Assembly: GCF_008831285.2 (NCBI RefSeq)
Contig: NC_045138.2
Location: forward strand, 35,641,115 to 35,705,114
Reading direction: 5' to 3'
Origin: Nymphaea colorata
Taxonomy: Eukaryota > Streptophyta > Magnoliopsida > Nymphaeales > Nymphaeaceae
DNA: 64,000 bases
Below are positions 7,143 through 64,000 of the stretch, piece by piece (the stretch's first letter is position 1; each line of letters opens with the position of its first letter). Made by a program: the position numbers and the translations under genes. The notes beneath the pieces are model-generated. The model was not told the origin of the DNA and ran no database searches. It saw nothing but the letters and a program-made list of their open reading frames with translations.

Positions 7143-9160
7143 ACTTGAGCATGGGCATGGCACTTGGGTGTGCAATCAGTTTGTACAGGCCGCAAGTGAA
7201 CCGAATCATGCTACTCAAGGCATGTGCTCACCCTCGATGAAACACAGCCATGGGTGCGATTATCAGTAGATCTCCATGTGTTCGGGAGCTAACGATCTTA
7301 AAATAAAGAGAATTTTCTATTTTCAGGTCTACTTTTCGTGATCTTTTATAAGCTAAAGAGAAACCGGGAAAATAACATTTTCTTGAAACAAAACGAACCA
7401 TGTGATGGTGTTTTTCTTTAAATAAGCAAGCAGACGGATAAGTGGTCAGGAGTTCCCATAGAAAGGGAAAAGCCTATGATACGAACTGTATGAATAAGAA
7501 CCGAGAACAGAAGAAAATAAATGTGAGGCGACTTCAGTGGGCACATATGCTGTTGAGTGAAAGGCAAACATCCGGTGTAACTGCAGTGGGTGCTTCATCA
7601 GCAGCAGAAGCAACAGAGAGGAAGAAATGCTTCATTTAGGGCCGAACCTTTTCATTTTTACTTAAATTTGAGTCCGAAAGTTAAGCATTTTTTGTATGTG
7701 GCGCCATGGCTCTCTTGAAACTGCTATTAAATTCTGACACCTCGAGAGAATGACAAAGGTTGATGCTTTTTGGAATTGTATATTACTAGGACTTAGCTCA
7801 TTTGGCTACGAAATCATATTAAACACCATATTGAATAGGTAGCTATTAATTTCACTGTTTTCTAACAACAGAATGGGAATGACCAGATCTTCCTTTCTCA
7901 AGATCTTTCATTTGAACTCATACCTTGTCTTTACGTAGTCAATACATATTTTCACAGAACGACTGGATCTCATATTAAAAAAAAATCCAAGTAAAATAAA
8001 CAGGGACCAGGGTATTGTTCCGGAGCCGGTAAGCTATGAATCTTTCGTAAAAACTGGTTCCCGAGAATCTGCCAAAAGAACAAATTTTGCTTCTCGTTCT
8101 TGGGATTCATGGTGCAAAACTTACTTTCAGCAGAGAGAAACTATTATATTACCGATGTATGTCTGCGATGGAGGTTCATGGTACGTCTTGCATCGTCCAA
8201 CGATCTCTCTCTCACTCTCAGAGACGGGGAGAGAGAGAGGCATCTCGTGGGGCGCTCCTAGGAGCATTCCCCCTTTGCCTTCGCCGCCAAAAGAGGGAGT
8301 CCTGAGTGGTTCTCCCTCTTCTCTTGTGCCGTACGTCTTCTCACAGACTCCACCACCCCTCCTCCCCCTCTTCTCCCATCTGCCCGCATTTAGCATTGAC
8401 TCAGAGAGAACGCCAGTGAGCAAGGATCCTGCGGTGCTCTTTCTTATTCTTTCTTTTCCCTTTTCCTTTTCCTATTAAAAGCGAGAGCAAGATGGTCGTT
8501 TGTGATAAAACTAATGAACCAGGTTGACTCTCTCTCTCTCTCTCTTGTTAACTTGTATAACTCGTTAGAGGAAAGTGTATAAGGTACCAGCTGTTTTCTG
8601 GGGTCCCAATCAAAGTGGGGTACCTTGTGAGCGTCCAATCTAATTTGTTCTTAGTGGGGTTTTTGAGATGTTGGAGACAAGGCACTGGGTTTCCTTTTCC
8701 TCTTTTTCGTGCTTTTCTACGGATAACTTTTACAGTTTTACTATTGATTTTAGAGAATAACCTTAAAACACAAGTAAATATGCCACCTATTGTTCCTTTT
8801 GCTTAGCGAAAATTCTTCTTCTGATAAATAAGTTATTGCTCCGAGTGTTTTGAGTTCCGGCGATTTGGAAAAACTTCATGCTTATGAAGATGGCGAATGT
8901 TTATTGTTGTTCATACAGTCTAACAAGTGCCCCTGTCAGATTGTAAGGAGGAATTCTTCTGAGTTATAGTGTTTACGTCCTCTGGAGTTTGGAGGTGTGA
9001 AAGATTGTTTGTGTAACTTGGGTGACAAAGGCATGATCACTTTCCGGTTGGGACATCACATATTATAGGGGCAATTATTTCAAGGTGCTCTTTTTGCTCT
9101 TTTGAATCTGAGATGCTATACTTGTGGACTTTCGAAGAGATTGGGAGTAGGAGCCATTAA
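7143..9160 (+). promoter_or_regulatory. Upstream region and probable 5' leader of the bZIP gene, copy 1
   Basis: No coding gene is supported. The proximal ~1 kb is pyrimidine-rich with CT tracts (near 8203-8220 and 8528-8544) typical of plant 5' leaders. A CT/GA pair at 8203-8240 could fold as a hairpin. A leader intron is plausible because several acceptor-like AG sites precede the ATG, but no transcription start or TATA box can be fixed. ORFs of 60-107 aa here on both strands are low-complexity translations of these tracts. Confidence 0.45.
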
Positions 9161-13152: not shown

Positions 13153-14055
13153 ATGGCGGTGTGCAACGCCGTCGCGGATTCAGTCTTCCATTCCATCGGT
13201 CACGCTGGTTCAGGTTCCCTCTCTGTCTCCATCTCTCTCCGTGACTGCTTATGCCTTCTTCTTCCACTTCGTGTGGCATCTGTTTAATCGCCGGAAGAAG
13301 TGTCCGACGATCAACTGTCCATGTGAGTATGGACTTCTTTCTATCTCTTTCTCATTACAGCGACGAAAATGTTCGGGCTCTGAGGTCCTCTCTTTCTCTC
13401 TCTCTCTCTTCCCCGCTCCCCCACCGGGCCACCCCTTCTCTCTCAAGAATTCCAGATTGCATTTTTTATACGGCAAAAATTTGGAGCGGGCGCTCAGAAT
13501 CGTGGACCTAGGCGGCGTCAAGCGCATTGCCGGCGAACCCAGCGGCCGAGCGCTCTTTCTGGTCACTCTCCTCCCTCGTGCTTCGTGGGCTTCCCTTTTC
13601 GCTTCTTATTCTTCGTGGGTTTTATTTTCTTCTTGTTTTCTGTTTATTTGCGTAATGGGTTGGGGTTGACCGGATTACATTGGGTTTAGGTGGTGGTGGA
13701 ATCAAGAAGGAAAGAGGAGTACATCTGCTTCCCTACCCACCATTGCACCTGCTACTCCTCCTTCTACGACGTCGTCAACAAGGCGGAGCAACTCTGTGTA
13801 CGGCTGTTAGTCCCTGTCCAGTTTCCCTTGTACCTTCACTTTCATCATCCTTCTTTTCTTGTGGTTGTATTATCATCTGTCAAATTTGTTTTCTTCGTCT
13901 GTTAAATTTGTTTTCTTCGTCCTCATCGTCATATTTTTTGTTTCTTGGTCCAGTGTAAGCATCAGTTGGCTGCACGGTTCGCGGAGGGGGTGCAGGCTTA
14001 CACGGAAGTGAGAGTGCCTGACGAGGAGTTGGCTGTCATGCTGTCCAGGCTCTGA
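13153..14055 (+). CDS. SSN2: SWIM zinc-finger protein, SSN2/SWS1 (ZSWIM7)-like, copy 1
   Basis: Predicted plant homologue of SWS1/ZSWIM7 (Arabidopsis SSN2), a homologous-recombination regulator acting with RAD51-type proteins. I model five exons: 13153-13213, 13298-13322 (25-nt microexon), 13456-13561, 13690-13797 and 13954-14055, with consistent phases, giving 133 aa. Exons 3-5 are strong: LHFLYGKNLERALRIVD, then SGRALFL, VVVESRRKEEYICFP and the SWIM ligands C83-x-C85 and C101-x-H103 (EQLCCKHQLAARF). The microexon supplies VSDDQLS, which fits the family just before LHFLYGKN. Exon 1 (MAVCNAVADSVFHSI) is the least certain. The final exon is partly duplicated just downstream. YqgF-like follows on the same strand after ~0.8 kb. 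Confidence 0.85.
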
Positions 14056-14227
14056 CGCTTGCCTGTGGTGTAATTGTTGTTCAACACCAAGAGGTGATTC
14101 TTATCTTTGACGTAAATTTCTTTCAGGAGTTGGCTGTCATGCTGTCCAGGCTCTGACGCTTGCCTGTGGTGTAATTGTTGTTCAATACCAAGAGGTGATT
14201 CTTATCTTTGACGTAAATTTCTTTCAA
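14026..14227. repeat. 101-bp tandem duplication over the SSN2-like stop codon, copy 1
   Basis: Two adjacent 101-bp units, 14026-14126 and 14127-14227, differ at only about two positions. The first unit carries the last nine codons and stop of the SSN2-like gene (ELAVMLSRL), and the second repeats them downstream as untranslated sequence. The unit ends in CTTTCAG, which resembles a splice acceptor placed just before the duplicated codons. Confidence 0.93.
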
Positions 14228-16371: not shown

Positions 16372-16471
16372 NNNNNNNNNNNNNNNNNNNNNNNNNNNNN
16401 NNNNNNNNNNNNNNNNNNNNNNNNNNNNNNNNNNNNNNNNNNNNNNNNNNNNNNNNNNNNNNNNNNNNNNN
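16372..16471. other. Assembly gap of exactly 100 N
   Basis: A run of 100 N, the conventional symbol for a gap of unknown size. In the second block the matching position contains about 1.82 kb (roughly 48552-50367), which includes YqgF-like exons 3-6 and a long CT microsatellite. The real missing length is therefore probably ~1.8 kb. Confidence 0.99.
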
Positions 16472-17419
16472 TTTCTCCCGGACATTGCCAATGCATTGTG
16501 GTCGCCGTTTAGAGTTGGAACCATGCAGCATTAAGAATGGTAGCTTGCTGAGAAAGTAGAAACAGAAAAAAGTTCGTGTAAAACATCGATAACTAGGCCT
16601 GCAAAGTAAAAGGCATATAACTGAGCAATTTGCCATCTCTTGGCCTCTCCATACGTGAACACGCAAGTGAGCTAAAGACCCATCTAGTAACCATGTCAGA
16701 CTCGAGGATCATGGTAAGGACAAACCAGCAAGTGTTTACAGAGGCAGAAATGAGCACCATTTCGCAAGCCCATCAATCTCACTTAGGCCAAGTATCGATT
16801 AGTTAATTCTCCATGGTATACGCCCACTGGGGTACTCTTACTGTCTTACACCTCAAAATCGAGTGAAGAGACTGGGAGCTATTCTCGACTCTTCATCACT
16901 CGTTTTGAGAAAAAAAATCGTAAAGCAGTGATGTCTTAAGACTTTCTGTGCCATGTGTTTGATTGCCTTTATAGAGAAGGGTTTCTAGTTCCTAATTTAT
17001 ATTAACCATCTTTCGGCAACGGCCAAAGAAAGTAAAATTCAAAGCACATTCCACAAGTTCAGATAAAGAAACCATCGAAACGATTTACTCTCTTTTTCCC
17101 ATCTTCTTGTCTGGCTAGACTGACAATCCTACAAAGTCAACTAAAATCTCATTGAACTTGCTTTTTTTTTCTTCCGTATGTAAGAAGGTTTCTCAATGTT
17201 ACAGGCACAAAAGCATAAGCACGGAAGCAAAAGACTACAATATGGGAGAGAAGAAAAACAGCATTTTCATTATCCAAGCGGAAGTTGCGAAACAGTTTTT
17301 TTGGACTCTCTTACGATAGAAAGCATGGCAGGATATCATACACACACAAACTATGCATGTCAACTTCTCACTGTTGACAAATTATTTTTCCCCGTCAGTG
17401 AAGCATGAGTTTACTGGCT
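16472..17419. other. Convergent spacer between YqgF-like and SQD1, copy 1
   Basis: Probable 3' UTRs of the two convergent genes. The reading frames here are short and unsupported. No gene is seen. Confidence 0.5.
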
Positions 17420-19217
<1,798 letters not shown>

Positions 19218-20620
19218 TCTTCAAAATGTAGAGAGTACCTGAGAAAGAAAACAGATTTTTCCTACTTGAGTCAGAAGCTTAACGAAATGATCAATCAAGA
19301 AACAACAGCAAAAAATGGGACAAAAGACGGGGAAAAAAAGGAAAAAATAAACCACAAAAAGAAAAAGGGGGAAAAAAGAGAGAGAAATGTATCATCATAA
19401 TTTTCCAAATCTGTCCATGAAAGCAGTAGGCTTAGACTTTGAAAGCAGCAACCAGACTCACCAACTCTAACTACAGATATTTAATTATAAGGACGTATTA
19501 TAACCTTAATTTTAAATCATGCATAAATCAGAGACCAAGTTTGTGCTTGTGTTCAAAAAACACCAATGACCAAACCAGTTCTATAAAGCATGAGTCTGAA
19601 TATTTACCCAGAACCCTTCAAATCAAGCATCAACCTGGTGCGCAAACCAGAAATATTTAACCTGATTGGATGGGTAACCCAGATGAGGATCAACAATGAG
19701 GACTAAACGAATTAGACTCAATAACTTCTCCAAGCTGGACAAATTCTTTGAATTGTTAGAACAAATCTTTTATGCATCTAATGGTCTCAACCAAGATCAA
19801 TCTAGTGTTCTAGGATCTCAAAGAATTTATGAACGGACATGACATATTCACCCCTATCCACCAATGCACATGGTTAAAAGATCTATCTGAACCATGGTAT
19901 GACAGAGATACCCAGTGATCATTTGCCACCAAAAATAAGCCAACCATTGCGTTCTTAGAGGGTTCCATTACCAGAGAAGTGAAAATCATACTACTTTTGG
20001 GGAATAGAAAGAAAAATACACGGAAAAAATAACATCTCGGATGAATGATAAATGAATCTTTACGAAACTGAGAACGGCAGCACGTTGATGCATTGTTCAC
20101 TAAACTCCACGAAAGCCAATTTGGGGACAGAGGCAAGTATAGAGACTAAAAATACGTACAAGCTACACAAAATCTAGGGCAAATAAACCGAAAGAAGCAT
20201 AGGGGAGCAGTGAATTTCAAAAAAAAAATCAACAGCAACGGCACAAACAAATGGTACCCAAAAAACAACGAAAGCCCATTGTCAAGAAGGAAGAAACAGA
20301 GAAGGAAGAACCTGAAGCAACTGACTCAACAAGAGAGAAGCTATTAAATTCGTCACAATAGGACTGGAGGAGATGCAGGAAGGCCGGAGAAGGGAGCATC
20401 AGACGTACTTACTCTTCGTTACGCCGTTGGGATAAGATGGGGAAAAAGTCTCAGCTCCGGCGAGGTGGGAAAAGGAAGGAACCACTCTCTCTCGGAAGCG
20501 CTCTCTCTAGAGACAGTGACGGAAGTCCGGGAAGGTCCGCGAGGGCGTCAAAATGAAGCGCCTCTCTCCTTAGCTGTCCACTCCCTTTATCTCTTGCCTC
20601 CAAAACCTTTTCTTTTTGGC
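19218..20620 (-). promoter_or_regulatory. SQD1 5' leader with intron and promoter, copy 1
   Basis: Reading the minus strand, a strong donor AAGA|GTAAGT ends a leader exon at 20413 and an acceptor TTTCTCAG ends the intron at 19239, 21 bases before the ATG. This leaves a ~1.2 kb leader intron. The leader exon upstream (to about 20560) is rich in GA/CT tracts. No TATA box was assigned. Confidence 0.55.
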
Positions 20621-20789
20621 TTTTTTGGATGGTTTGAAAAATTGGTTAACACACCGGGAGCGAAAAAATTATCCCCTCAAACTATTTAATATAAAAACAG
20701 TTTTTATCTGTCCACCCAAATACGAAAATTAAAAAAATTAATTCTACAGAACCAAGTTTTTCGAAAAATCGTGTTATCCAAACGCTACC
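20621..20789. mobile_element. Small MITE-like element, ~170 bp, copy 1
   Basis: Imperfect terminal inverted repeats flank an AT-rich interior: left end TTTTTTGGATGGTTTG and right end TTATCCAAACGCTACC (right end in reverse GGTAGCGTTTGGATAA). It is non-coding. The GCGTTTGGAT terminus is a common plant MITE-type end and is shared with the larger element at 21312. No target-site duplication was established. It sits in the SQD1 promoter region. Confidence 0.45.
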
Positions 20790-21311
20790 TTCTAAATATC
20801 ACAAAAGCTCAGCCTCCCGCCCATTTTTAACTAGATATTGTATTTTGAGCAAGGAGATTGATTCACTTGCTAAGAGTGTAAAAAAAATAATTTGGATTTG
20901 AATCAGCGGAGCGCGTCAGATATTAAAATCGAGCTTCGAAGACATGCAAAACTTGGAAACTTTACCAAAGGATCTACACCTTTTTACCTATTGATTGAGG
21001 GTTTATGATTCCAACTCCAAACTTACTTTTTCCCGAGGCTGAAGTTGGTTATTTCTCCAATTTTTTACTCTTCTTTGGTTGGTAAGATTTAGTTTATAGA
21101 GTTACAGAAATCACGAAAAAGATAGACCTAGTAAAGAGATATTCGAATATTCCTTTTCACTCGTTGCTTTGACACGGATGATTCGGGAAGATGCCTTTCC
21201 TTCTTCAGATGCTAAAACCTCCATCTCACATATACTAATATATATGTGTGTGAGTTCAATTCAATCTTGCCGGCTGTCAGAAGTTTATTGGATGTTCTTG
21301 GATGACTAAGG
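20790..21311. other. AT-rich intergenic DNA, copy 1
   Basis: No gene or element is recognised between the two MITE-like elements. Confidence 0.5.
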
Positions 21312-22141
21312 CAGCGTTTGGATGAACTCCTTTAAAAAATGAAGTTTATTAAAATTTGGTTTTGAGAGAAAAAAAAGATATTTTTCTAAAAACTTGGTTT
21401 TAGTATTTGGGCAACCAAGTTTCACCTTTAAAACCAAGTTCTTGTTTGAATGACCAAAAATGGGCTTCGGAAGTTCTCTTAAAAAATGAATTTAAGTTGA
21501 ATGGTAGTTGAGAAACAGTTAGTTAAGTCTACGGTTAATGAAAATTGCATACTTGTTGGAGGTGGAAACTGTACAGAAAGAGAAAGAGCTAGAACTGAAA
21601 CATGTTTATCGATTTTCATCCGAAAGTTGTGGTCTACGAACATGAAAAGACATGGAACACATCCACATGGAACTGAGAAGAAACACACGTTGGATGAAGG
21701 TGGCATGAATTCAATGTTTAAATTTATAATCAAAAGAGAAAAATGCAATCACTGTACACTAGTGCTTTAACGGCCACAACTTTGTTAAATCCAGCTGCCA
21801 CAAACTAACACACAGGGTAATGAGTATGAACACTAATTAGAGTTATGTACAAGGATCGCACCATTTGGTATGCATAAATTTTTTGAAGACCCTTCATGAC
21901 AGAACAGTAACAAATGGTATCCAAATGGTTAAGGTAGCTTTGGGGTATTCATGGACGAATTTTGAGAGAGAGCAGAGAATGGTGGCGTTGGAGAAGACGT
22001 ATTTTATTCTAGTATTCCCATCCACCCAAAAAAAAAAAAACCTGGATGAAATCAGGTTTTCACGAAACTGCACTCCTTGCCAAAACGGTGTTTTAAAGGT
22101 AAAAAGCCGTTTTTCATTTTTGAGCATGCATCCAAACACAG
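21312..22141. mobile_element. Non-autonomous DNA transposon-like element, ~830 bp, copy 1
   Basis: The left end CAGCGTTTGGATG is mirrored by CATCCAAACACAG at the right end (11 of 13 bases complementary). Subterminal AACCAAGTTT/AAAACCAAGTT motifs repeat inside. ORFs of 89-100 aa in the interior overlap on both strands and resemble no transposase. The ends suggest a hAT-like or MITE-type element, but an 8-bp target duplication could not be confirmed. Confidence 0.4.
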
Positions 22142-22152
22142 AGTAAAATTTC

Positions 22153-22600
22153 AGAAAGTGTTTATGAAAAACAGTGAGTAAATTGACATTAACCATAGTT
22201 CATCATGCAACAACAGTTCGTGGTGGTTTAGCTACGATTTATGATCATTTTAGTGACACTTTTTAAAATTTTGGCCATCCCACACATGACTGCTTTGGCT
22301 TTTCCTACGTATAAGACACGCCTTGTAACACTTTGAATTTTGTGCCGTTTAAGAAAGTGTTGGCTAAACTTTAAAAAGTGTTGCTAAAATCAGTGGCTGA
22401 GTTAACATTGACTGTAGTTTATGATACATGGACGGCTTGTGGTGGTTTTAGCTACAATTGATAGTCATTTTAACGATACTTCTACAAATTTTAATCATCA
22501 CACAACTATGTGACGCATGATATCATTTACTTATCCTATACGTATTATATTCTAGCAATATGAATTTTGTGCAATTAAGTAAAAACCGCCACAATAATTA
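22153..22600. repeat. Imperfect ~200-230 bp tandem duplication, copy 1
   Basis: Two adjacent diverged units start at 22153 and 22352. Each begins AGAAAGTGTT and contains TTGACATTAACC/TTAACATTGACT, GTGGTGGTTTTAGCTAC and a TTTTGTGC near the end. Their divergence is much greater than that between the two blocks, so the duplication is older. Confidence 0.7.
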
Positions 22601-24300: not shown

Positions 24301-24740
24301 AGGTTTGAATTGTGATTCATCGGTTTTGGGTACATTAATTTCCTCTCTAACATTTTGGTTCTGCAGGTCTTCCTGGGTGCTGAAAGTTTAGGTCGCAGTG
24401 GATCTGCATTTTTTATGGAATTGTGATGTGGGTTTTGGGGTTCGAGATTTTCGTTCTTCGTGATGCTCTGAATGAGGATGGTGGTCCGAGAAGTGGGCTC
24501 TAGCGGTATCTGCTCGTGTCCTTTGATTAGGGTTTTTTTTAGGTGCAATTGCTCTCTCTTGATGGGATCGAGGACGATTAAGGTCATGGTTGTTTTCAAT
24601 TGTGCTAGTCAGGTCAGATTCGAGTGAAGAGCATTAGAATTATCGTTCCTGAGTATGTTGGATGTTTCGATTTGAGAGTTTGAGCATTTCTTTCTGTTTT
24701 CTGAGCATTTCTTTCTGTTTTCTTGACTTCTCCATTACTT

Positions 24741-24981
24741 ATGGAGGATCAGACGGATGAAGATTTCTTTGACAAGCCTGTGGATGACGAGCTCCTGCAG
24801 CTGAGTTACACGAGTGTAATGATTCTGATGGGATCAACGATGGGCCCCCTGCTGACACTTCTCTAGCGAACCTTTTTTTGAGTGAATCGGAGAACCATTC
24901 AGAAGTTCAGGTGGACGTCGCTGTTGCCGGAAAGTTTCTGCATGCTCATGCAGGCAGGAAGCTTGTCCTCTCTGCTGCACG
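24741..24981 (+). pseudogene. SEC16/MAIGO5-like N-terminal fragment, frameshifted, copy 1
   Basis: The ATG opens MEDQTDEDFFDK, the characteristic start of plant SEC16 (MAG5), a COPII scaffold at ER exit sites. After about 20 codons the frame is lost. A one-frame shift near 24810 restores NDSDGINDGPPADTSLANLF, resembling the acidic SEC16 segment that follows, and the stretch ends at a donor-like CACG|GTAATT. A full SEC16 has over 1000 residues, and nothing else recognisable as SEC16 follows. The frameshift is identical in copy 2, so it predates the duplication and is not a read error. A leader intron and 21-bp tandem pair (24681-24722) precede it. Confidence 0.55.
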
Positions 24982-46401: not shown

Positions 46402-47024
46402 TCCCTATAGGCAATTGATTGTTCTTTCCGTATTACTTAACTTGTGTTCCTATTGGTGATTGACCTCTCTGTGTTGGTTCATTTGTCATTTTGGTTTATA
46501 TTTTTGGCCTTTTAGTCATTCTTGTGAATTTTGTATAGTGTCTAAAAACTATCTCAACTCCGGAAGATATATATCGTATCCTTTTTCCTTGTTCTGCTTC
46601 TCTGTACTGATTAAAAGCAGTTGCATCGGTACAAGCTGTTACAAGAAATGGTTGCTGATATTCACTTTGTTTGTTTACGCCTTAATCATTTGAGGCATTC
46701 ATGTTACGAAGCTGGGCGGAAAATTATATTTTCTCTTGTTTGTTGTTGCTTAGATGGACGAAGCTGGTTATGGCGAAGCGTAAATAAATACGTTTTCTCT
46801 CTTTACTTTTTCAAAATTGGTGTCTCATTTTCTAGTAATCTTAAAGGATTTAATGAATGGTAATGACAAATCTCAACCACTTCAAAACCTTGAATGTTTC
46901 ACTTACTTGAGTTCCTCACAATGTCGGACTCATGGCAATTCTTTTAATTTTAGAAAATAATGCTGACTTATTGAATTCACTATTTCCATTGTTCAATTGT
47001 TATCACTTATTGATGTTTTTACAG
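46402..47024 (+). other. Spacer between SSN2-like and YqgF-like genes, copy 2
   Basis: Matches 14228-14849. The open segment from 46621 (LHRYKLLQEMVADIHF) reads further here because GCTGGGCGG has one G more than in copy 1. No family is recognised. Confidence 0.4.
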
Positions 47025-49953
47025 ATGAAGCTTGTGAACCCAAATGACTTATTCCATTATCTCTTGAAGAATAACAAGCTGAACAGAGGGCGGTTGCTTG
47101 GGTTAGATGTTGGTAGTCGGTATGTTGGTTTGGCTATTTCTGACCGCAACAATGCGCTTGCATCACCTCTGAGGTATGAAATATCTAAGTCAACTAGTTT
47201 ACCATGCTCTTACAGAGAATTTGTATTAGTAATTTAGTATATTATAATTCATATCTGAGGCAGAACTAGGACTGGTAGATCCTGTTAATACAATTTTTTT
47301 CCTGATGTTGGTTAGGTTAACTTCATTCACATGAGTCTCATATGTGGCCTACAGATTATTTTTTGTGACTATCTATCCAGATTTTAATGTTAGAACTTAG
47401 AAGCGCTAATGCTAGATTCATTTTTCACACCAACTGTTGGATGTGTTGTTAATCATGACTAAATCCTGGTGTTCATTTTGTTCTTTCAAATTTGGAGTTT
47501 GAATTAGTCTCGGAAGACTGAAAAACCGGTATGTTTTCTGTATGGTGTGTTTATTTTCCCAATCAGACACACTAAAAGGTCATCTTTGGTTTGAATCCTG
47601 ATAATCTGGACTTTGTAATGTGAGTGTGGAAGCTGGCAACTGATGATATCCAACAATGCAACAATAGAAAAGAATTTTCTCCCTTGTCCTCCCAATTGAA
47701 ATAGTTGATTTTATTAAGTAGCATAAATCACCAAATGCTCTTTATATATGCAAATATAAAGAGTAGATATACTGCTAAACTTAAAAGTTTGCTTCTATTA
47801 CTTGACATGAAAAATGAAATCAGAAAAGCCAGTTAAAGAAAAACATGGAAAAGCACCAACTTTATCCAGTTATTCTTTATTTCTTCGTTTTCTTGCTTAT
47901 ACTCATTATGAAGGCTAGATTAGTTGGGATCCAGCTTCCTTTTTTGCATGTTTCAGGCACATTCCTTTGATTGAAGTCCACATGCTTTAAAGTTTAAACA
48001 GCCTGTTCGCTAGTAGTTTTGTGGGGAAGCTTCAAGTCTTCTTCTTCTTCCTTTTTTTTTTTCCCTTTTCTGTTCTATAATTTTCCTTTCTGTTAGAGTA
48101 ACTATGGGTACCAGAATCTTATAACCGCGGTGACATGAATGTTGGAAATACAAATTTTGATCATTACATTGTGTCTTGATTATTTTGGTGTACATATTTC
48201 CTGATCTAATAACTTTTTTCAAAATTTAATCCTATCAACCTGGTTACATGGTTTCCTATCAATTTGACAGTGTATTAGTAAGAAAGAAGTCAAACATACA
48301 GTTGATGGCCAGTGACTTTGAGACTTTGGTAAGATTGTTTCCTGCTCTCTCTCACTCTCTCTCTCTCTATATGTGTGTGTGTGTGAGTATATACAGGCAC
48401 ACACACACACACACGTGCGCACACATGCATGACAAGTCAGGGTTTGTTCTAGACAGATATTGGAGTTCAATGTCTGGAAGGAGCAGTATTAGATGGTGCG
48501 TGACAAAAGAACCTTTGCTTAGTTTTGATTTTATTGACATCCGCATGAACCTTTTTTTTCCCCTTTTTTGTGATCAGGGTTTTGTGACATGTAGTCTAGA
48601 TATACGTGTTTACCAATATGCCATGTTAGAATGCATGATGTAGTTCCCTTTTAGTGGTGATTCTGTAAAGTATATACTACCTGTTCCTTGGTAATGTTTG
48701 TGGTCCTCGAATACTTTTTTTGCTTCCATGACATATGTTTCCACCTATGATCATCTTCTGATTTTCTTAGGATGTGTGCATATTTGACATTGTGAATGGT
48801 TATCTTCTGATTGACATTTTGAATTTTTGATGATTAAAACAATTTAAGGTTGTCAATTCCTATCTTTAACAATCTCGAAGTTGAACTCATTTTCAGTGGT
48901 ATGTTTTTCTAGTTAGAATTGCACTTTCTCAAATTGCATATTGTTTTTCTTTTGTTATGTGGACCTTGTTTCAACCCAATTTGTTTGATTAAAGGAGGTT
49001 CATATATGTTCCTTATCATTCAGCCATCGCATCCAGGAAGCAACATGGTAGTCTATTTAGAATTGAATAGGAAACTGCATCAAAATTTAGTGCAGCATAG
49101 AAGCACATATGGAGTACGACAAGCAAATATAGGCCTTCATTATGACTAGCAGATTATTATAGTCAATTCTGATGCTACTTTGTTAGGATGCCTCATGTCC
49201 CTATGCCAGGGGCGATACACATGCTGCAATGGCCAGGACAAAGGTCATGAAGCTGCGAGGGTAGCCTAAACTCCAGAGTAAACATTTCCAGTTTGATTGT
49301 TCTTTTTCTTTTGCAGTACTTCTGCCCACATTTCTGCTGTTAGATTATCCTTTTTCTGATAAGTATGTACTATTGACTTCTGTCTCTGGACTCTGGGTAT
49401 GTTCACCTGCGTGGATGTTTATGTGCTTGCCCATAAGTCCAGCTAGATTCTCTGCATATCCTGCTTGACATGATTGATAAGTAAACAGTGATTGACATGA
49501 CAGCCAGTAGTAATTTTGAATGGTTAATACAACGTCTTAGCATGTCTGTGCAGGTAAAAGAATATTCTTTAGCGGGGTTAGTTATAGGATGCCCTTATAA
49601 TTTCATGGGTTCTGAAAATTCACAGGTAAATATTATTTTCAGGTTTCAAGATGTCAGCTATTCGTGTCGATATCTATAGATTCTGGTTTTGTGTAGGTGG
49701 CACAAGTAAAGCTATTCGTGGATTCTCTTCGCAGGACTGGGCAACTTGAAGGATTGAGCTACACGTACTGGGACGAGAGGTTTACTTCAAAGGTGAGCGT
49801 TGACCCTGCAGTTCAAGAGTGAAAAAAAGTCACTAGGTTACTCATGTTGGACTACTTGTCTTGTAGTGTGTAGAAGCACTGGTGAGGCCCCTCAATCTGC
49901 ATCCCGTGCAATATAAGACGGTTATTGACAAATTTGCTGCTGTTGCCATTCTC

Positions 49954-49998
<45 letters not shown>

Positions 49999-50098
49999 AT
50001 ATGTGTCGTGATCCTTCACCTGTGTTTACTTCTTCTGACAGGGTTTCCTGGACTTCGCAAACAGGAATCTCAAGCTAAGGGAACAGGAAAAATCATGA
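47025..50098 (+). CDS. YqgF/RuvX-like RNase H-fold nuclease, copy 2 (complete)
   Basis: Six exons, 47025-47173, 48271-48328, 49554-49625, 49697-49792, 49867-49956 and 50042-50098, join in frame to 173 aa, normal for the family. The three acidic catalytic positions are present: D28 in LLGLDVGSRYVGLAISD, E120 in YTYWDERFTSK and D146 in VIDKFAAVAIL. AGLVIGCPYNFMGSE in exon 3 is the conserved strand after the first helix. Bacterial YqgF trims pre-16S rRNA and was proposed to resolve Holliday junctions. The role in plants is unsettled, and no clear transit peptide is visible. Intron 5 begins with a CT microsatellite (49957-49994). The start follows an acceptor TTTTTACAG, so a leader intron is likely. 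It converges with SQD1. Confidence 0.92.
48346..48425. repeat. CT, TG and CA microsatellite cluster in YqgF-like intron 2
   Basis: A CT tract is followed by (TG)n, a short spacer (AGTATATACAGG) and (CA)n. The TG and CA arms are complementary and can form a hairpin. Copy 1 (16170-16245) differs here by small losses. Confidence 0.9.
49957..49994. repeat. (TC)n microsatellite at the start of YqgF-like intron 5
   Basis: About 19 CT dinucleotides directly follow the donor GT. The copy 1 counterpart is inside the N gap, and this tract may have contributed to the assembly break. Confidence 0.95.
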
Positions 50099-51315
50099 TG
50101 TACTGGTTTTTGTACGACAGCTTGGCCTAGCATTGGATGGTGGTTGTCCTAAAGCATCAATTTCTCACTGTTTATATTATTACCAGGCAATACACGCCCC
50201 AGTTTCTGTTGCTGCTTTATTTCTTTCAAAGGTGTCTTGATGCCCATGTGATAATCGCGACGTTATTCCTCGTCTACATAGAACGATAGGTTTCAAGAAA
50301 TTGAACGGTGCTCAATAGCTATAACCGGCTATGTTAAGTAGACCTGTTCAGCTAAGCTAATCAAACTTTCTCCCGGACATTGCCAATGCATTGTGGTCGC
50401 CGTTTAGAGTTGGAACCATGCAGCATTAAGAATGGTAGCTTGCTGAAGAAAGTAGAAACAGAAAAAAGTTCGTGTAAAACATCGATAACTAGGCCTGCAA
50501 AGTAAAAGGCATATAACTGAGCAATTTGCCATCTCTTGGCCTCTCCATACGTGAACACGCAAGTGAGCTAAAGACCCATCTAGTAACCATGTCAGACTCG
50601 AGGATCATGGTAAGGACAAACCAGCAAGTGTTTACAGAGGCAGAAATGAGCACCATTTCGCAAGCCCATCAATCTCACTTAGGCCAAGTATCGATTAGTT
50701 AATTCTCCATGGTATACGCCCACTGGGGTACTCTTACTGTCTTACACCTCAAAATCGAGTGAAGAGACTGGGAGCTATTCTCGACTCTTCATCACTCGTT
50801 TTGAGAAAAAAAATCGTAAAGCAGTGATGTCTTAAGACTTTCTGTGCCATGTGTTTGATTGCCTTTATAGAGAAGGGTTTCTAGTTCCTAATTTATATTA
50901 ACCATCTTTCGGCAACGGCCAAAGAAAGTAAAATTCAAAGCACATTCCACAAGTTCAGATAAAGAAACCATCGAAACGATTTACTCTCTTTTTCCCATCT
51001 TCTTGTCTGGCTAGACTGACAATCCTACAAAGTCAACTAAAATCTCATTGAACTTGCTTTTTTTTTCTTCCGTATGTAAGAAGGTTTCTCAATGTTACAG
51101 GCACAAAAGCATAAGCACGGAAGCAAAAGACTACAATATGGGAGAGAAGAAAAACAGCATTTTCATTATCCAAGCGGAAGTTGCGAAACAGTTTTTTTGG
51201 ACTCTCTTACGATAGAAAGCATGGCAGGATATCATACACACACAAACTATGCATGTCAACTTCTCACTGTTGACAAATTATTTTTCCCCGTCAGTGAAGC
51301 ATGAGTTTACTGGCT
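50099..51315. other. Convergent spacer between YqgF-like and SQD1, copy 2
   Basis: Probable 3' UTRs of both convergent genes. No further gene is supported. Homology to copy 1 resumes at about 50368, after the gap. Confidence 0.5.
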
Positions 51316-54535
<3,220 letters not shown>

Positions 54536-54705
54536 TTGTTTGGATGGTTTGAAAAATTGGTTAACACACCGGGAGCGAAAAAATTATCCCCTCAAACTAT
54601 TTAATATAAAAAACAGTTTTTATCTGTCCACCCAAATACGAAAATTAAAAAAATTAATTCTACAGAACCAAGTTTTTCGAAAAATCGTGTTATCCAAACG
54701 CTACC
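54536..54705. mobile_element. Small MITE-like element, copy 2
   Basis: The ends TTTGTTTGGATGG and TTATCCAAACGCTACC are imperfect inverted repeats around an AT-rich non-coding core. Here the left end reads GTTTGG where copy 1 has TTTTGG. Confidence 0.45.
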
Positions 54706-55228
54706 TTCTAAATATCACAAAAGCTCAGCCTCCCGCCCATTTTTAACTAGATATTGTATTTTGAGCAAGGAGATTGATTCACTTGCTAAGAGTGTAAAAA
54801 AAATAATTTGGATTTGAATCAGCGGAGCGCGTCAGATATTAAAATCGAGCTTCGAAAGACATGCAAAACTTGGAAACTTTACCAAAGGATCTACACCTTT
54901 TTACCTATTGATTGAGGGTTTATGATTCCAACTCCAAACTTACTTTTTCCCGAGGCTGAAGTTGGTTATTTCTCCAATTTTTACTCTTCTTTGGTTGGTA
55001 AGATTTAGTTTATAGAGTTACAGAAATCACGAAAAAGATAGACCTAGTAAAGAGATATTCGAATATTCCTTTTCACTCGTTGCTTTGACACGGATGATTC
55101 CGGGAAGATGCCTTTCCTTCTTCAGATGCTAAAACCTCCATCTCACATATACTAATATATATGTGTGTGAGTTCAATTCAATCTTGCCGGCTGTCAGAAG
55201 TTTATTGGATGTTCTTGGATGACTAAGG

Positions 55229-56059
55229 CAGCGTTTGGATGAACTCCTTTAAAAAATGAAGTTTATTAAAATTTGGTTTTGAGAGAAAAAAAAGATATTT
55301 TTCTAAAAACTTGGTTTTAGTATTTGGGCAACCAAGTTTCACCTTTTAAAACCAAGTTCTTGTTTGAATGACCAAAAATGGGCTTCGGAAGTTCTCTTAA
55401 AAAATGAATTTAAGTTGAATGGTAGTTGAGAAACAGTTAGTTAAGTCTACGGTTAATGAAAATTGCATACTTGTTGGAGGTGGAAACTGTACAGAAAGAG
55501 AAAGAGCTAGAACTGAAACATGTTTATCGATTTTCATCCGAAAGTTGTGGTCTACGAACATGAAAAGACATGGAACACATCCACATGGAACTGAGAAGAA
55601 ACACACGTTGGATGAAGGTGGCATGAATTCAATGTTTAAATTTATAATCAAAAGAGAAAAATGCAATCACTGTACACTAGTGCTTTAACGGCCACAACTT
55701 TGTTAAATCCAGCTGCCACAAACTAACACACAGGGTAATGAGTATGAACACTAATTAGAGTTATGTACAAGGATCGCACCATTTGGTATGCATAAATTTT
55801 TTGAAGACCCTTCATGACAGAACAGTAACAAATGGTATCCAAATGGTTAAGGTAGCTTTGGGGTATTCATGGACGAATTTTGAGAGAGAGCAGAGAATGG
55901 TGGCGTTGGAGAAGACGTATTTTATTCTAGTATTCCCATCCACCCAAAAAAAAAAAAACCTGGATGAAATCAGGTTTTCACGAAACTGCACTCCTTGCCA
56001 AAACGGTGTTTTAAAGGTAAAAAGCCGTTTTTCATTTTTGAGCATGCATCCAAACACAG
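55229..56059. mobile_element. Non-autonomous DNA transposon-like element, copy 2
   Basis: Same element as 21312-22141: inverted ends CAGCGTTTGGATG and CATCCAAACACAG and no transposase. It is shared by both blocks, so the insertion predates the duplication. Confidence 0.4.
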
Positions 56060-56070
56060 AGTAAAATTTC

Positions 56071-56520
56071 AGAAAGTGTTTATGAAAAACAGTGAGTAAA
56101 TTGACATTAACCATAGTTCATCATGCAACAACAGTTCGTGGTGGTTTAGCTACGATTTATGATCATTTTAGTGACACTTTTTAAAATTTTGGCCATCCCA
56201 CACATGACTGCTTTGGCTTTTCCTACGTATAAGACACGCCTTGTAACACTTTGAATTTTGTGCCGTTTAAGAAAGTGTTGGCTAAACTTTAAAAAAGTGT
56301 TGCTAAAATCAGTGGCTGAGTTAACATTGACTGTAGTTTATGATACATGGACGGCTTGTGGTGGTTTTAGCTACAATTGATAGTCATTTTAACGATACTT
56401 CTACAAATTTTAATCATCACACAACTATGTGACGCATGATATCATTTACTTATCCTATACGTATTATATTCTAGCAATATGAATTTTGTGCAATTAAGTA
56501 AAAACCGCCACAATAATTAA
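56071..56520. repeat. Imperfect ~200-230 bp tandem duplication, copy 2
   Basis: Counterpart of 22153-22600 with the same two diverged units. Confidence 0.7.
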
Positions 56521-58658
56521 TATAGTTTCAGTTGATGTGGTATACTTCACAACTGAATTTTTCTACCCTTCAGTAAAAAGCACAGTTGTCAACAGCAAAA
56601 ACAAAAAAACTAACAATTACTCTTTTCAACTACTTAAAGAGATTGTTCGGGTTTTTAGACAGCGATATGAAAAGCAAGTAAAATGAATTGACAAAAGTAC
56701 AAGGTCAGTGCTTTTCAAACCAAGTTCATTTTTCATTTATATTCTTCTTCTGTATAAGCAACGCCTTTCCAATATGCATTTAAAAATGCCATACACACCC
56801 TTAAGTAGGAAGATGCAAAATAAAAATAAAAAAAAAAAAAAAAATCTTCTTGTTTTGTACTTTCCTCTATTACATGGGAGTTTGATCTTGTTTTCTACTG
56901 CAAAATCAAGGTTTTGTTAGAGTTCCCAACAAAGTTGGGCATCCAAATCATTTGTGTGGATTGTAGGTAGAAATAGAACTTAATTATAGCTTAGGATTTC
57001 CACACAGAATCTTATTGTTTCTCATTTCCAACCCACATTTGGAATTTCTTATAGATGTGTAGCTTTATTGCAAACTGCTTTACCAACACTTCCGTTCACT
57101 CTGAATTTAATTAAAGGAGCTCCGTAGTCAAGGGTCTCAAAGACTATAAATGCTGCCATACATGCATGGCTACTAGCAGGTTTTTACCATGCTGATGATG
57201 CCTGTTCAAACCGAAGCAACAAATATTATTTTTGGGTCTTAAAGCATGCCATGTGTAACTCCTTTGATCTTGCGCTATTGGATCCGGTCTACATGGCGTG
57301 GCTTGCTTGGTTTCTCAAATCTCATGTCACCCAAATTAGTTTGAAGTGTTGTGGGGTGGACATGAAAATGGTCATCGACCGCTCGGTTTCCTTTTTATGT
57401 CTCACTTTTCCTGTCTCTCTCTTCTCCCCACCGATCGCTTTCTTGGCTCACCTTGAATCTCTAACGGCAAATTCAAGGTGTAGTAAACAATCTTAGCTAA
57501 TTGGTATGTAGGTTAAAAAATGAGCTAGATTGATAAAAGTTACAATCAAATTCAAAATGTGTATTCACATTTTGTTTTATATGTTTGTAAACCTTTGGGT
57601 TCCAAGCAATTAGTTTCCAAGCGCTTGCTATAACATTGCACCTCAAATTTTGATAAACAATATTCTTTCATCAACTCAAACATTTCTCTTTATGTGACGT
57701 ACGCGTATTAACCCGATGCGTGTGTGCATCACGGCCCGCACTTTTATTAGAAAAACCGTTTCTTACAATTATAAGTAAAGTTGAACGCGAAAGGAGAAAT
57801 AAACCTTAGAAAGATATGAGAAGTATTTATTACTCAAATTTTCATGCCACGCTCGCTCGCTCGCTCGCTTGCTTTTTTTGTGCGCGCTCTCTCTCTTTCT
57901 CTATCTTGTAAAGGAAAGAAAAAATGGAGCAAACCCGAAGGCCGTTACGTCGTGGGTGGTGAAATGACGGCAGGGAAAACAAAATCCCCACCCGTCTCTC
58001 TCTCTCTCTCTCTCTCTGCGCTTCTCAGTTTTCCTCTTTCTAATCTAGGTAAACCCATCTTGTTGATTTCTTTCTGTTCTTTCCAATTCGATTTTCCTCG
58101 ATTGTTTTTTTTTCTTGGAAACATTTCACCGAAGATGTGTAACAGCGTTCATTCCTCCCCCTTTCGAACGAGTTTCGTTTTCTTTTTAATTTATTCTCGT
58201 TGCTCGTTTTGATTTGTTTAGGTTTGAATTGTGATTCATCGGTTTTGGGTACATTAATTTCCTCTCTAACATTTTGGTTCTGCAGGTCTTCCTGGGTGCT
58301 GAAAGTTTAGGTCGCAGTGGATCTGCATTTTTTATGGAATTGTGATGTGGGTTTTGGGGTTCGAGATTTTCGTTCTTCGTGATGCTCTGAATGAGGATGG
58401 TGGTCCGAGAAGTGGGCTCTAGCGGTATCTGCTCGTGTCCTTTGATTAGGGTTTTTTTAGGTGCAATTGCTCTCTCTTGATGGGATCGAGGACGATTAAG
58501 GTCATGGTTGTTTTCAATTGTGCTAGTCAGGTCAGATTCGAGTGAAGAGCATTAGAATTATCGTTCCTGAGTATGTTGGATGTTTCGATTTGAGAGTTTG
58601 AGCATTTCTTTCTGTTTTCTGAGCATTTCTTTCTGTTTTCTTGACTTCTCCATTACTT
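56521..58658 (+). other. Intergenic DNA and SEC16-like leader, copy 2
   Basis: Matches 22601-24740: CGCT repeat near 57852-57870, CT microsatellite near 57994-58017 and a leader intron ending at TTCTGCAG near 58285. No other gene is seen. Confidence 0.45.
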
Positions 58659-58899
58659 ATGGAGGATCAGACGGATGAAGATTTCTTTGACAAGCCTGTG
58701 GATGACGAGCTCCTGCAGCTGAGTTACACGAGTGTAATGATTCTGATGGGATCAACGATGGGCCCCCTGCTGACACTTCTCTAGCGAACCTTTTTTTGAG
58801 TGAATCGGAGAACCATTCAGAAGTTCAGGTGGACGTCGCTGTTGCCGGAAAGTTTCTGCATGCTCATGCAGGCAGGAAGCTTGTCCTCTCTGCTGCACG
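58659..58899 (+). pseudogene. SEC16/MAIGO5-like N-terminal fragment, frameshifted, copy 2
   Basis: Identical coding remnant to 24741-24981, with MEDQTDEDFFDK then loss of frame and an early stop, and the same donor-like end. Sharing of the frameshift by both blocks shows it is a feature of the genome. An intact SEC16 gene is expected elsewhere. An alternative is that an unrecognised small intron bridges the shift, but no good GT-AG pair was found in the ~40 bases involved. Confidence 0.55.
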
Positions 58900-60016
58900 G
58901 TAATTTTGTTCGTTCAGTCTGATCCTGTTAACTTGGCAACTCATTATCTTTTTCTTTTCTTTTTCCGTTTTTTTTTCTCTTTCACTGTCTATGTGGTCAT
59001 TCGTTGGTTGAAGCACTTCTGGAGTCATGGATGGATGCATTTAAATTTCTTGGTCTGTAATGTGGTGAGGAATTAATGGATCTGACAAGAGGTGTGTTTC
59101 TGCATCTTGGGAGGAAGAGTGCAGAAGGGATGTGGAGAAATGGAATAATGGTCAGGCTACTATGTATGAGGCCAATTTTTGATGTCTAACTTACCGTGTA
59201 GGAGGCCTGTCTTTGCAACTAATATTTTGATTCTGGAATTATATGCTTATTATTAAATCAAAATTCTGAAATTATGATTCTATCCTAAGGGGTAGAATTA
59301 TAATTCCGGGTTTTGTTTATGTTTGAGAAGTAACTCATGCATTTTATTTGTTCTTTAGTTATAATTTGATAGCCGTATTTTTTTATTGAAATTTCAATTT
59401 TATTATTATGTTTCACAACTCATAATGCAATTATTGGTTCCTTTTTTTCTTTTTGGACTCTTTAATGCGTCTAGTCCTCCTCCTAGTTGTGGGACTACAA
59501 ATTAAACTTTTGAAGAGAGAGCAATTCGTAATATTTTTAGTGCCGTACAACAGGCACTGGGGTTTAAAATGTTAGAGGGATATTGATTTTAAAATGAAAG
59601 AGAATTTGATTAGTAAGAGGAATTTTTATAGCCCACAACGGATGACCAGAGTAGCCTCTCAAGATGAAACGTAGAAGACATCTGTTTTTTTGGGTCTGGT
59701 ATTCTTGTATATTCAAACTGTGATGATGGCATTGTTGGCGCTTCACAAAGCTACGGACCAGGGATTTAAAAGCACTTGTTTAGTCAAAGTAAGTTCAATA
59801 AATTCATTAACCTCTATGATTTTTAAGCTACATTTACTAACTTTAATAACTTTCAATAAATTCAAACTTCACCGATTTTATCTAATTCTACCATGCGGCT
59901 GAGAAAAGAAGTATACTATGAAATGGAAAAATGAAAAAAAAGATACAGACGTTAATTGGGAGACAGGCGTAGGTAGGCGCACTTGAGGTGCACATCTCGG
60001 CCGTTGAGGTGTGCGT
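58900..60016. other. CACTA flank, copy 2
   Basis: Matches 24982-26099. The 59307-60016 part is the segment present three times in the window. Confidence 0.75.
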
Positions 60017-60277
60017 CACTAGAACTAGTACATACATGCGGGTGTGCGAAAGGGTAACGGAACGTATAGCGGTGGCAGGGATCACCGTTATAGATTTATA
60101 GCGGTGAAACTTGTGGCGGTGGCTAGATTCACCGGTATAAGAGGCTTTTAGCGGCGGCGCATAGCCCCGCTATAAGTGTATAGGCGGCGAAACGAGTCCC
60201 CGTTATAGTTCTACAGCGGTACTGTTTCTCACCGGTATAGTCTTATACCGGTTGTTTTCATCCCCGCTATACGTTAT
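60017..60277 (+). mobile_element. CACTA transposon left end with subterminal array, copy 2
   Basis: CACTAGAAC at 60017 is followed by the same alternating TATAGCGGTG/CACCGTTATA array as at 26100. No transposase is present. Confidence 0.68.
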
Positions 60278-61304
60278 CATTAAAGAAACACAAACAAAAT
60301 TTACGTCCCTCAAGAGTACATATTAATCTCATCCTCCCACTAATGCTGGTTATTTGCATCTGCAAGTTCTTTTTTAGTTTTTAGAAATTGGAGAACATTT
60401 ATTTTAAGAATGTACTTGTTTTTATATGTGCATACTAAAGGAATGAAACTCACTAACTTAGTTGTCCTGCCTAAGCTAACTCATGTGTGTGTAACATAAC
60501 ACCCTCTATGTGGGAAGCAGACTAAACTACTCTTATGTTGATAATATTCAGAACAAAATATTTGGCTTAAAAACGAAACTCCATTCCCTAGCACCAGTGG
60601 TCTTGGTACGTATCTTTTTGGATATGAATCATAGTACAGATGGATCGAGATATGCCAAACCAGGCATTTGAGTTATACAGTGTCTGAAACATCAAAATAT
60701 GTTGATTTTTTTTTTAAAAAAAAAATTGGCCTTCGAACATTTTTTTTATTTCTAAAACTAATAACACAACGTGTGTTGTAAAATATGTAGGATTTTGTAT
60801 GGTTCTTCGTTATGTGGCGTATGATTGTGCTACAAAAGTCTTCTGTTAAGTATTAGTTCGTGTCTGCGCGTTCAAACTTTTTTTTTCCGTTTTGGGTTAT
60901 GACTTTCCACCAACATCCGAAAGGAAGGATAACAACAGTCCAGTTGTCTACCTTATTCATACACATAGAAAGCATTGAAGCAAATGTAATTCAAAAACGG
61001 AAAGCCTGCGAAACATTCTCCATCGAGCGGTCTCTCGTTAATAAAAAGAATTGATAATACCGTTTCACCCTCTTTCCTTTTTTGTGCTTCTCCCCTTTTC
61101 CATCTTCCTTTTTCTTCCTTTTTCTGCTACTCCCCCTTTCCCTCTTCCGCTTTCTTCCCTTTTCCCTCTTCTGCTTTCTCCCTTTTTCTGCTTCTCCCCT
61201 TTTCCCTCTTCCTCTTTCTACCGCCGGTGGATCGGTCGGCGTCGTTCAGATCCTCGGATGCACCTTCGGCCCTTTCTGTTTTTTCTCTCTCTCTCTCCTG
61301 CCAG
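60278..61304 (+). other. AT-rich interior and pyrimidine-rich leader, copy 2
   Basis: Matches 26361-27388. No supportable gene is present. Confidence 0.45.
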
Positions 61305-61477
61305 TCCGTTGTGGAGTCGGTCGGCAACCATTGGAACTCGGTCTCCAGCGGTGGCTCCGTGGTCTTTCAGGAGGCAAATAATCCGGATTCAGATGGTGTG
61401 CTCATGGATTCATCCTTGCAGCCTGCCGGCTTCGGCCTCTCGCCGTCTATGGCACCGGACTGGGGCCACGCTTTAAT
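61305..61477 (+). other. Unassigned exon-like segment, copy 2
   Basis: Identical to 27389-27561: acceptor, 57 open codons and donor TTTAAT|GTGAGT. Confidence 0.4.
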
Positions 61478-64000
61478 GTGAGTGTTCGCATCAGCGGAAC
61501 CATGATTTTCTGTTGTCTGACTCCTGGTTCGTATTTGAATTTTAATGTTCAATTTCATCGTTTTATTTGTCCACGTTCAGTTTAGTTTCCAATGGGCGAT
61601 GATCAGAGATTATTATGGTTATTCATAATCTGATGTCATTAGTCGATGATAATTGCAGAGTCATGGGAAAAATCAGCTGTTCATGAGTTTACTAATTTTA
61701 TTATCTACTCTAATTGTGCACAATGGGTGGTTGCATTATTTTTAGATAAATTTTGCGGTTTCACAGGCATATGTAGCTTGAATCTTTGTAGTTCCTAATT
61801 ATTGTATAGAATTTTGATTTATGATTGCTGTTTTAATTGAAAAAGAACAAGAAAAAATTGCTGTGAGGAACAGGCTGTTTTCGATCATTTTCTTATTTTT
61901 ATGTCATTGATATAGCTGTCTAGAGGCAGGACCCGTAGATGGATTTGTATAGCTTAACCACATGAAAAATCGATAGTTTTTCTCATCATCCTATGACTTT
62001 GGACCTTCAGCAACGGTTAATTGATCATGAGATTTGTATGGTGTCTGTAATCTCAAGGCTTCTTTACTTCACCTTTTAGTTTGCGGGTAAGTACTAAAAA
62101 GTAAAACTACTAAATTGCATCAGGGCTTGTCCTGAATTTAGGGGTTGCGAGGAAGCCAGAAGTCAGCCCGAATTTCGACCTTCAGTTTCAGGAATAGATT
62201 GAATAGAAAATCTTAGAAAATTGTCATTGTTGTTTGATTGAATTTTCAGAACTATCCTTAAAACTTTGGACAAGATGAATGCTCGGTGATATCCTCTAAT
62301 TAAAAAACAGCTTAATCTTGAACATCAGAGATGAATATGTTCTCTTCCTACTTTCTCCTTACGTTTATCTTGCTCTATTGTGATATAATAAGCTGGCTCA
62401 GCAAACACTAGTGAGGGGATTTAGGTGATATTGCCTTCCAAGAGGGGATTTAAGATCTCTGGTCATTTAGAGCATATAATCAGAAATACGTGAGGCTAGA
62501 GAGTGTAGGCGTATAATCAACTAAGGAACGAGCTGATATTCGTACATTCGTTTGACTGATTGCAGTAGATGAAATGCAATAAAGGTGTCTAAGTTGGTGC
62601 AATGCGGTTCTTAGATTAAAAAATTTGTGCTTGCTGGTTGTCATCTAGCATTCTCACTTTTGAGCAACATTGAAATTGCAGGAAGGAGGAGCCTCTATGA
62701 AACCAGTGAGGACAACTTCTTTTCAGCAGTCATGCCAAACTTCAGCATGTCTCAGTAATTTTCTTTCTCTTATACCTGATTGTTTAAGAATACTTATCGA
62801 CACTCCCACCCAAATGACAGGCTGAAAAATGATTTTCCATTTTCAGAACCTATTGTCAAACATGCGTTTGCTTTTTATTATTACAGTCACTATTTTCTTC
62901 TTGTGTTTTTGTCGTTGTCTTCTCTATGCAAAATTTGGTCATGATATGAGGAATTTTTTTAGGGGTGAAAATATTTTGAGCAATCTTGCAACTCGTGCTT
63001 GTGGTTGGTGCTCACTTTTATTTTGGTGGACTATTCTTTAGCATTGTCACACCCTCACTTCTAAGGGCTCTTTTCTTTCCAAACTTACAGTTGCTTTTGA
63101 AGTATATGTTCCTACCTTGCTGTTATCTTTTTTTGTCAACTGATTAGGCCAACTACTCCAAAGCTTACTTTTGGGGAAAAAAAACCTTTTCGTTCCAACT
63201 ATTTGTGGAACCCTTGTTCACTAAGAAGCCCATATGTACCAAGGACTTGTAGCCTCTAGGCTTTTCCTTTTTTGTAGAGGACCTTATAGGAGAGTGTGAT
63301 GGAGCCTACTCTTTTACATCCCTCCAAAACCCATTACACGGGTCACTCCAGTTTCACAAACACCCTATCTATGGGGAAAAGAGAGACTCCTTATCTGGAC
63401 AATGTATCATTTGATGTCGGCAGTTTTCCAAAAGTTTTTAGCCCTATATTTGTTCAAAAGGACTTTCGTGCACAATGGTATACCTTCTTTTTTTCTTAAG
63501 TATTTTTTTAAGGAGAAGGATGAAGTTTGAAGCTTTTGTTGTCAGTCAACGAGAGGTAAAACTGGAAAGATCCTCGATATGAGCAGTGTGGGAGAATCTG
63601 ATGACACTGAGGAAGTCAAAGATTAGAAAAAGCTATTAGCCTTAGCAATCAAACATCTGCAAGGGTTTAGCAGGAGAATGCTATGAGAATGAAGCCCTAG
63701 CGTCCTGTAAAATCTTGGCAGGTAGCAAAATGAGAGTTGAGGGTGAGCTCGGGGCAAGTGTAGTCGTTCCTCTGGGTCAATACGTGAGAGTACTGAGAAG
63801 GCGCATAGCTGATTTGCGTCTCTCTTGCGAAATCATGTGACCTATGAACTTTTGTCTAGTCGTGGCCTGAAGCCTTCTGAACTCGAGCAAGTAAGTCCGA
63901 GGGGTGTTCTACACCTGGTACCCTAAGGCCAACTGGTCTGGGAGCTGCCGGCCCAAAGCTCGCTACACGGGTTCAGTAGAAAGCCCAATAGGCACGATAT
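61478..64000. other. Intergenic DNA to the window end, copy 2
   Basis: Matches 27562-30085. No gene is supported. Confidence 0.4.

Follow-up and report, generated by a model that had tools for sequence, protein, structure and literature searches.

Does this region of the Nymphaea colorata genome carry a recent duplication of several genes, or has the assembly set down a single locus twice, either as two retained alleles or through error? The window, meaning the whole stretch of 64,000 nucleotides under analysis (C1:35641115-35705114, in a genome of 407.8 Mb in 783 sequences), contains two long near-identical blocks, which a preliminary description had read as either a duplication or an unpurged haplotig. 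The answer that we regard as probable is a very recent tandem duplication of a 33.9-kb unit, real on at least one haplotype and lying amid assembly debris. Such an event is of an ordinary kind: recent tandem segmental duplications with a microhomology junction are a common kind of copy-number variant. A published assembly of Nymphaea colorata (PMC7015852) is described as comprising 409 Mb, 14 pseudo-chromosomes and 804 scaffolds, with PacBio RSII and Canu named as sequencing platform and assembler.

Self-comparison of the window bore out the two near-identical blocks starting at 7143 and 39314, and resolved them into two matching pieces: 7143-16371 matches 39314-48552 at 99.88% identity (1 mismatch and 10 gaps in 9,239 columns), and 16472-30085 matches 50367-64000 at 99.77% (0 mismatches and 32 gaps in 13,640 columns). 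Matches of 9.2 and 13.6 kb at such identity are far beyond chance. The pieces are separated in copy 1 by a 100-N scaffold gap (16372-16471), and since copy 2 has 1,814 bp at the colinear site (48553-50366), they belong to a single colinear block, interrupted in copy 1 by a contig break. The block ends proposed earlier, 30085 and 64000, did not hold, since position 64000 is simply where the window stops. Once a further 30 kb downstream was included in the comparison, the second piece extended to 16472-37720 = 50367-71605, and a second 100-N gap (71606-71705) follows copy 2. What had been taken for some 9 kb of different sequence between the copies is mostly the unit's own continuation (30086-37616), and unit end and unit start are separated only by a real spacer of about 1.7 kb, the link J (37617-39313, 1,697 bp). 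The view that this is not a simple head-to-tail unit likewise gave way once the comparison passed the window edge, where the copies prove to lie head to tail with a period of 33,895 bp, as in a tandem duplication. The case shows that the edge of a scan window may be mistaken for a duplication boundary. The preliminary description mentioned neither of the two gaps, which are the two seen in the DNA examined and both lie at this locus, nor a third partial copy on an unplaced 22.6-kb contig, C595.

We label the contigs a (up to 16371), b (16472-71605) and c (from 71706), and the segments L (left flank), U' (gene segment, about 20 kb with the gap filled), X (macro-repeat), J (link) and R (right flank), with b1 and b2 for the two copies in contig b, whose first 21.2 kb equals its last 21.2 kb (Table 1). 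A 102-bp head-to-tail duplication (99%) lies within the unit in both copies (14024-14226 and 46198-46400), and a stretch of the left flank, 2697-2770, matches its own reverse complement.

Table 1. Coordinates of the features at the duplicated locus, in window positions.
Feature	Position	Strand	Evidence
Left flank L	1-7142		5600-7142 tested: one full genome match and one weak 55-bp match elsewhere
Copy 1 head, end of contig a	7143-16371		Against 39314-48552: 1 substitution, 10 one-base indels
100-N gap inside copy 1	16372-16471		Colinear site in copy 2 has 1,814 bp
Copy 1, remainder of U', start of contig b, contains SQD1-like gene (- strand)	16472-25377		Matches 50367 on, no substitutions; epimerase Pfam match in copy 2
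X macro-repeat segment, unit end, copy 1	25378-37616		Family members on C12, C163 and at C1:13.0 Mb
J, X continuation joining unit end to unit start	37617-39313		Single full-length exact genome match
J/U junction	39311-39316		3-bp microhomology ACT at 39314-39316
Copy 2 of unit	39314-64000, on past the window to about 71605		Self-match
bZIP gene exons, copy 2	41333-42466	+	ORFs; bZIP_1 (22.8 bits against a cut-off of 27.6) and bZIP_2 below curated cut-off
RuvX/YqgF-like exon, copy 2	46911-47234	+	ORF; PF03652 E=1.1e-6, 29.5 bits against a cut-off of 29.2
SQD1-like gene exons, copy 2	51319-53122	-	Pfam epimerase; 366-aa open frame starting at the Met in exon 52022-53122

Each end of the unit has two different neighbours in the assembly. 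To the left of the unit start lies L in copy 1 (contig a) and J in copy 2 (contig b), whilst the X end at 37616 is followed by J in both copies of contig b and by R in contig c and C595; after its second X, contig b re-enters J for about 105 bp and then ends, as a tandem unit predicts. In a genome search, the tested part of L was single and 7143-8600 was found at the two copy sites only. When 60-mers spanning the boundaries were searched, allowing at most 3 differences, against the whole of C595, 94 kb of C1 and 20 kb each of C12 and C163, L/U and J/U were each found at one place, X/R at two, U/X at three and X/J at four (two in contig b, one on C12 and one on C163). Provided that contig b is correct, this combination of L and J to the left of the unit start with J and R to the right of its end requires two or more occurrences of U' on a single chromosome; if contig b is wrong in the repeat, L/U and J/U could lie on different haplotypes.

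The J/U junction lies within gapless contig b, the first gap falling inside copy 1 and the stretch from copy-1 X through J to copy 2 being gap-free. Past the breakpoint, X reads ACTAGTACATAC both on C12 and inside the unit, and at J/U it changes to ACTTGAGCATGG. The junction reads ...CACTACA-ACT-TGAGCATGG and the corresponding X on C12 and inside the unit reads ...CACTAGA-ACT-AGTACATAC, with 3 bp (ACT) common to both sides and one differing base immediately before them. Since X runs unbroken past the breakpoint at both of these sites, J/U is, as seen in the assembly, a derived junction that joins unit end to unit start.

J itself belongs to X, its end (38592-39316) being the same X stretch as 25378-26109 within the unit (97%). 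That J is a piece from another X copy is ruled out by its next full-length match in the genome, at 94%, even if parts match better: the last 0.7 kb is 97-98% like 25378-26109, a C12 copy is 95% identical over 1,348 bp, and the first 121 query bases match the end of contig b at 100%. Neither is J a noisy, low-quality chimeric stretch. Although BLAST gap openings against C12 are denser here (20 in 1,860 columns over 37113-38947, against 21 in 9,378 over 26815-36187), a three-way alignment gave no single-base gap in J at a position where both others have a base, compared with 7 in C12 and 3 in C163, and the differences that are J's own are extra stretches of 17 and 15 bp and an absence of 8 bp.

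The copies differ mainly by one-base indels, as had been claimed, with 42 of these (10 between contigs a and b, 32 in the self-match of contig b to 30085) and 1 substitution (A11003/G43175) in the 22.8 kb compared within the window; the single substitution is the only one in the 9.2 kb over which the copy-1 head on L can be set against the copy-2 head on J. All ten indels between contigs a and b are bases missing in contig a, six of them in its last 1 kb. The complete self-match of contig b has 74 indels and 5 substitutions, the latter all downstream, at 37225-37463, and for 64 of the 74 it is the copy closer to an end of the contig that lacks bases (binomial p = 9e-11). Indel density along contig b is 0.65/kb over 16472-18000, 6.0/kb over 18000-22500, 0.38/kb over 22500-33000, 7.0/kb over 33000-36000 and 12.2/kb beyond, a gradient that does not fall steadily from the contig end, since the contig's initial 1.5 kb has 1 indel against 27 in the following 4.5 kb. 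Because they are concentrated towards contig ends, the indels look like consensus errors where the ends are thin. Assuming substitution rates of 5e-9 to 1.5e-8 per site per year, one substitution in 9.2 kb would place the divergence at about 0.1-60 thousand years (95% ranges taken together).

Two further pieces repeat the end of contig b. C595, unplaced, reversed and 22,619 bp long, begins at the equivalent of 49883, crosses U' and X, reaches about 1.1 kb into R and duplicates 21.6 kb, and contig c duplicates 7.7 kb of the contig b end; the two overlap each other over about 8.8 kb, a mutual repetition that is redundant whether the order has two copies or three. Over 16472-26452, C595 has no substitution relative to contig b. 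A four-way alignment of b1, b2, C595 and contig c up to 37616 shows substitutions in 101 columns. Of those that precede contig c, 25 are private to C595 and 1 has a gap; beyond that point, 35 are private to C595 and 21 to contig c, 7 set b1 and b2 against C595 and contig c, 4 single out b1, 2 single out b2 and 6 have a gap. The private substitutions are probably mostly noise, and their number in C595 (25 and 35) means that its consensus is poor in places. From the 7 sites shared by C595 and contig c it follows that there are at least two versions of X, namely X1, which leads to J, and X2, which leads to R. At the four sites where b1 is the odd one out and b2 has the state of C595 and contig c (36400, 37237, 37296 and 37463), as at the two where b2 differs alone, b2 does not behave as a clean X1 copy, and the end of contig b therefore looks mixed. 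C595 differs from b1 in 27 columns between 26.4 and 28.3 kb, 9 having the C12 and C163 state, 17 being found in C595 alone and 1 being split; the nine support a different X copy in C595 there. As a clean allele C595 is unsupported, with its lack of substitutions up to 26452 and these 27 columns just beyond.

The X segment, which begins at 25378, is a 13-15 kb macro-repeat with relatives on C12, at C1:13.00-13.02 Mb and on unplaced C163. Of the piece 30086-32600 there are six full and one partial copies at C12:14.89-14.98 Mb, the full ones spaced 13.4-18.5 kb apart, and three full and one partial at C1:13.00-13.02 Mb, at a spacing of about 5 kb; full copies at these places and on C163 are 96-99% identical to the query. 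One sequenced X unit on C12 has a period of 14.8 kb. The X segment of the duplicated unit looks as if one X unit had been inserted here. From 25378 to 38592 it amounts to about one X period (13.2 kb), and about 1.7 kb of the C12 unit is absent. Six-frame Pfam searches of 26800-36702 and 36000-39312 returned nothing beyond a weak partial match to Tic110 (E 0.0054 and 0.0015, below cut-off), a stretch of 37 aa near 36457-36567, and X has no confident Pfam domain; the same search of about 4.7 kb of R gave no match.

A young tandem duplication, badly assembled, would bring these observations together as follows. The duplicated unit would consist of U', an X segment of roughly one macro-repeat unit and the additional X stretch J, and a break inside X would have been joined to the U' start via the 3-bp microhomology. 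The resulting chromosome would read L-U'-X1-J-U'-X2-R, or would contain one more U'-X1-J. Reads that were probably too short to span the repeat would have made the assembler break within it, leaving the two 100-N gaps, the overlapping contig c, the orphan C595 and poor consensus at the contig ends. The order L-U'-X1-J-U'-X2-R is the simplest; with only two copies it would require a mis-walk at the mixed end of contig b, whilst the three-copy order L-U'-X1-J-U'-X1-J-U'-X2-R accounts directly for the second entry into J. In its head-to-tail 33.9-kb unit, its sharp breakpoints, the 3 bp common at the junction and the near-identity of its copies, the locus resembles known tandem segmental duplications; it is unlike the typical case in that the breakpoint falls in a 13-15 kb macro-repeat and its copy number is taken here from the assembly. 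It is improbable, on our assessment, that the locus is instead an actively amplifying array of at least three 33.9-kb U'-X-J units that started from a break in recombination-prone X; X, already present as an array on C12 and in several copies at C1:13 Mb, would then have captured a segment of ordinary genes and now be expanding with it.

Two kinds of false duplication have to be weighed against a true one, and Ko et al. 2022 (PMC9516828) distinguish heterotype (allelic) from homotype (error-driven) cases, listing haploid-level coverage, discordant read pairs and gaps that separate the duplicates among their signs. The homotype kind would make the whole pattern an artefact, with a single-copy locus, a chimeric J/U in contig b and the unit's reads assembled twice. 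We judge this unlikely, though much of the detail resembles it: short indels, biased as errors would be (64 of 74 within contig b towards its own contig end, and 10 of 10 against contig a), make up nearly all the differences between the copies, 100-N gaps lie nearby, the end of contig b looks mixed, and the redundancy of contig c (7.7 kb) and C595 (21.6 kb) fits the homotype kind as characterised by Ko et al. The near-identity of the copies is equally compatible with one locus laid down twice, J/U is found on one assembled contig, and no gapless piece joins L, copy 1 and copy 2. Yet a new J/U junction in a gapless contig, running from copy-1 X through J into copy 2, is unexpected from read errors alone and is not predicted by the homotype kind as set out there. 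Repeat confusion by itself leaves the joining of X to the U' start unexplained, the unit start (7143-8600) being confined to these two places, and since J has a single full-length exact match, the assembly would have to lack its true right continuation.

The other half of the original alternative, a retained haplotig in which the blocks are two alleles of one locus, fares worse still and is in our view very unlikely in its simple form. Near-identical blocks on one scaffold and a near-identical third piece left unplaced (C595) are what a heterotype false duplication might look like. Alleles, though, would be expected to differ by substitutions, of which there is one in 22.8 kb, and to share flanks; here the left neighbours are L and J, the tested part of L is found once, and a J/U junction in mid-contig is left unexplained. 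Pieces of five unplaced contigs were also fetched, and four of them (C400, C500, C596 and C700, with C300 left out) were searched: in this small sample none had a match of at least 97% on C1-C15 among the matches listed, and all four matched other unplaced contigs, C700 also C16, among those same matches. Of the two possibilities first proposed, duplication is therefore the one favoured, by J/U in a gapless contig and by the two neighbours at each unit end. Within this favoured duplication, it is possible, if doubtful, that only one haplotype carries it, the other reading L-U'-X2-R and being represented by C595 and contig c. C595 does show U'-X2-R directly, and the seven X sites set contig c with it against both copies in contig b, but the absence of any C595 substitution over 16472-26452 would then require low heterozygosity there. 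Contig b might finally be a 33.9-kb circle (U'-X1-J), extrachromosomal beside a single-copy chromosome and walked 1.6 times, since, like a linearised circle, it begins and ends with the same 21.2 kb. A tandem array yields an identical pattern, however, and at the X/R end of contig c and C595, X is not continued by J, so that the circle would not derive from that chromosome end; we hold this reading to be extremely unlikely.

For the genes in the unit, the duplication, if real, would mean that the SQD1-like, bZIP and YqgF-like genes were at least doubled, and very recently, and it would mark the macro-repeat as the breakpoint. The names first given to them stand to differing degrees. An NAD-dependent epimerase Pfam match on the minus strand (58.5 bits against a cut-off of 20.9) fits SQD1, and we take this gene to be SQD1-like from its sequence features; the RuvX/YqgF match is just above the Pfam cut-off and that to bZIP below it, and a general Pfam scan gave no match for SSN2 in the frames that it covered. 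The earlier concern that a retained haplotig would make every apparent paralogue false is partly right, in that contig c and C595 duplicate sequence and the copy-1 SQD1-like gene looks broken by indels near a contig start. Its exon at 18126-19217 is 6 bases shorter and has 22 stops in the frame that is open in copy 2; given the error pattern near the start of contig b, this copy should not be read as a pseudogene. Whether the duplication is true or not, the assembly's gene counts and the broken copy-1 SQD1 are not to be trusted at face value.

Amongst the unplaced sequences, the C500 and C700 pieces consist of tandem repeats with a period of about 3.16 kb, many near-identical copies of which occur on C500, C543, C283, C220, C26 and other unplaced contigs; these are possibly an rDNA spacer or a satellite. 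The last-numbered contig, C783, is 159,842 bp long, a length usual for a plastid genome.
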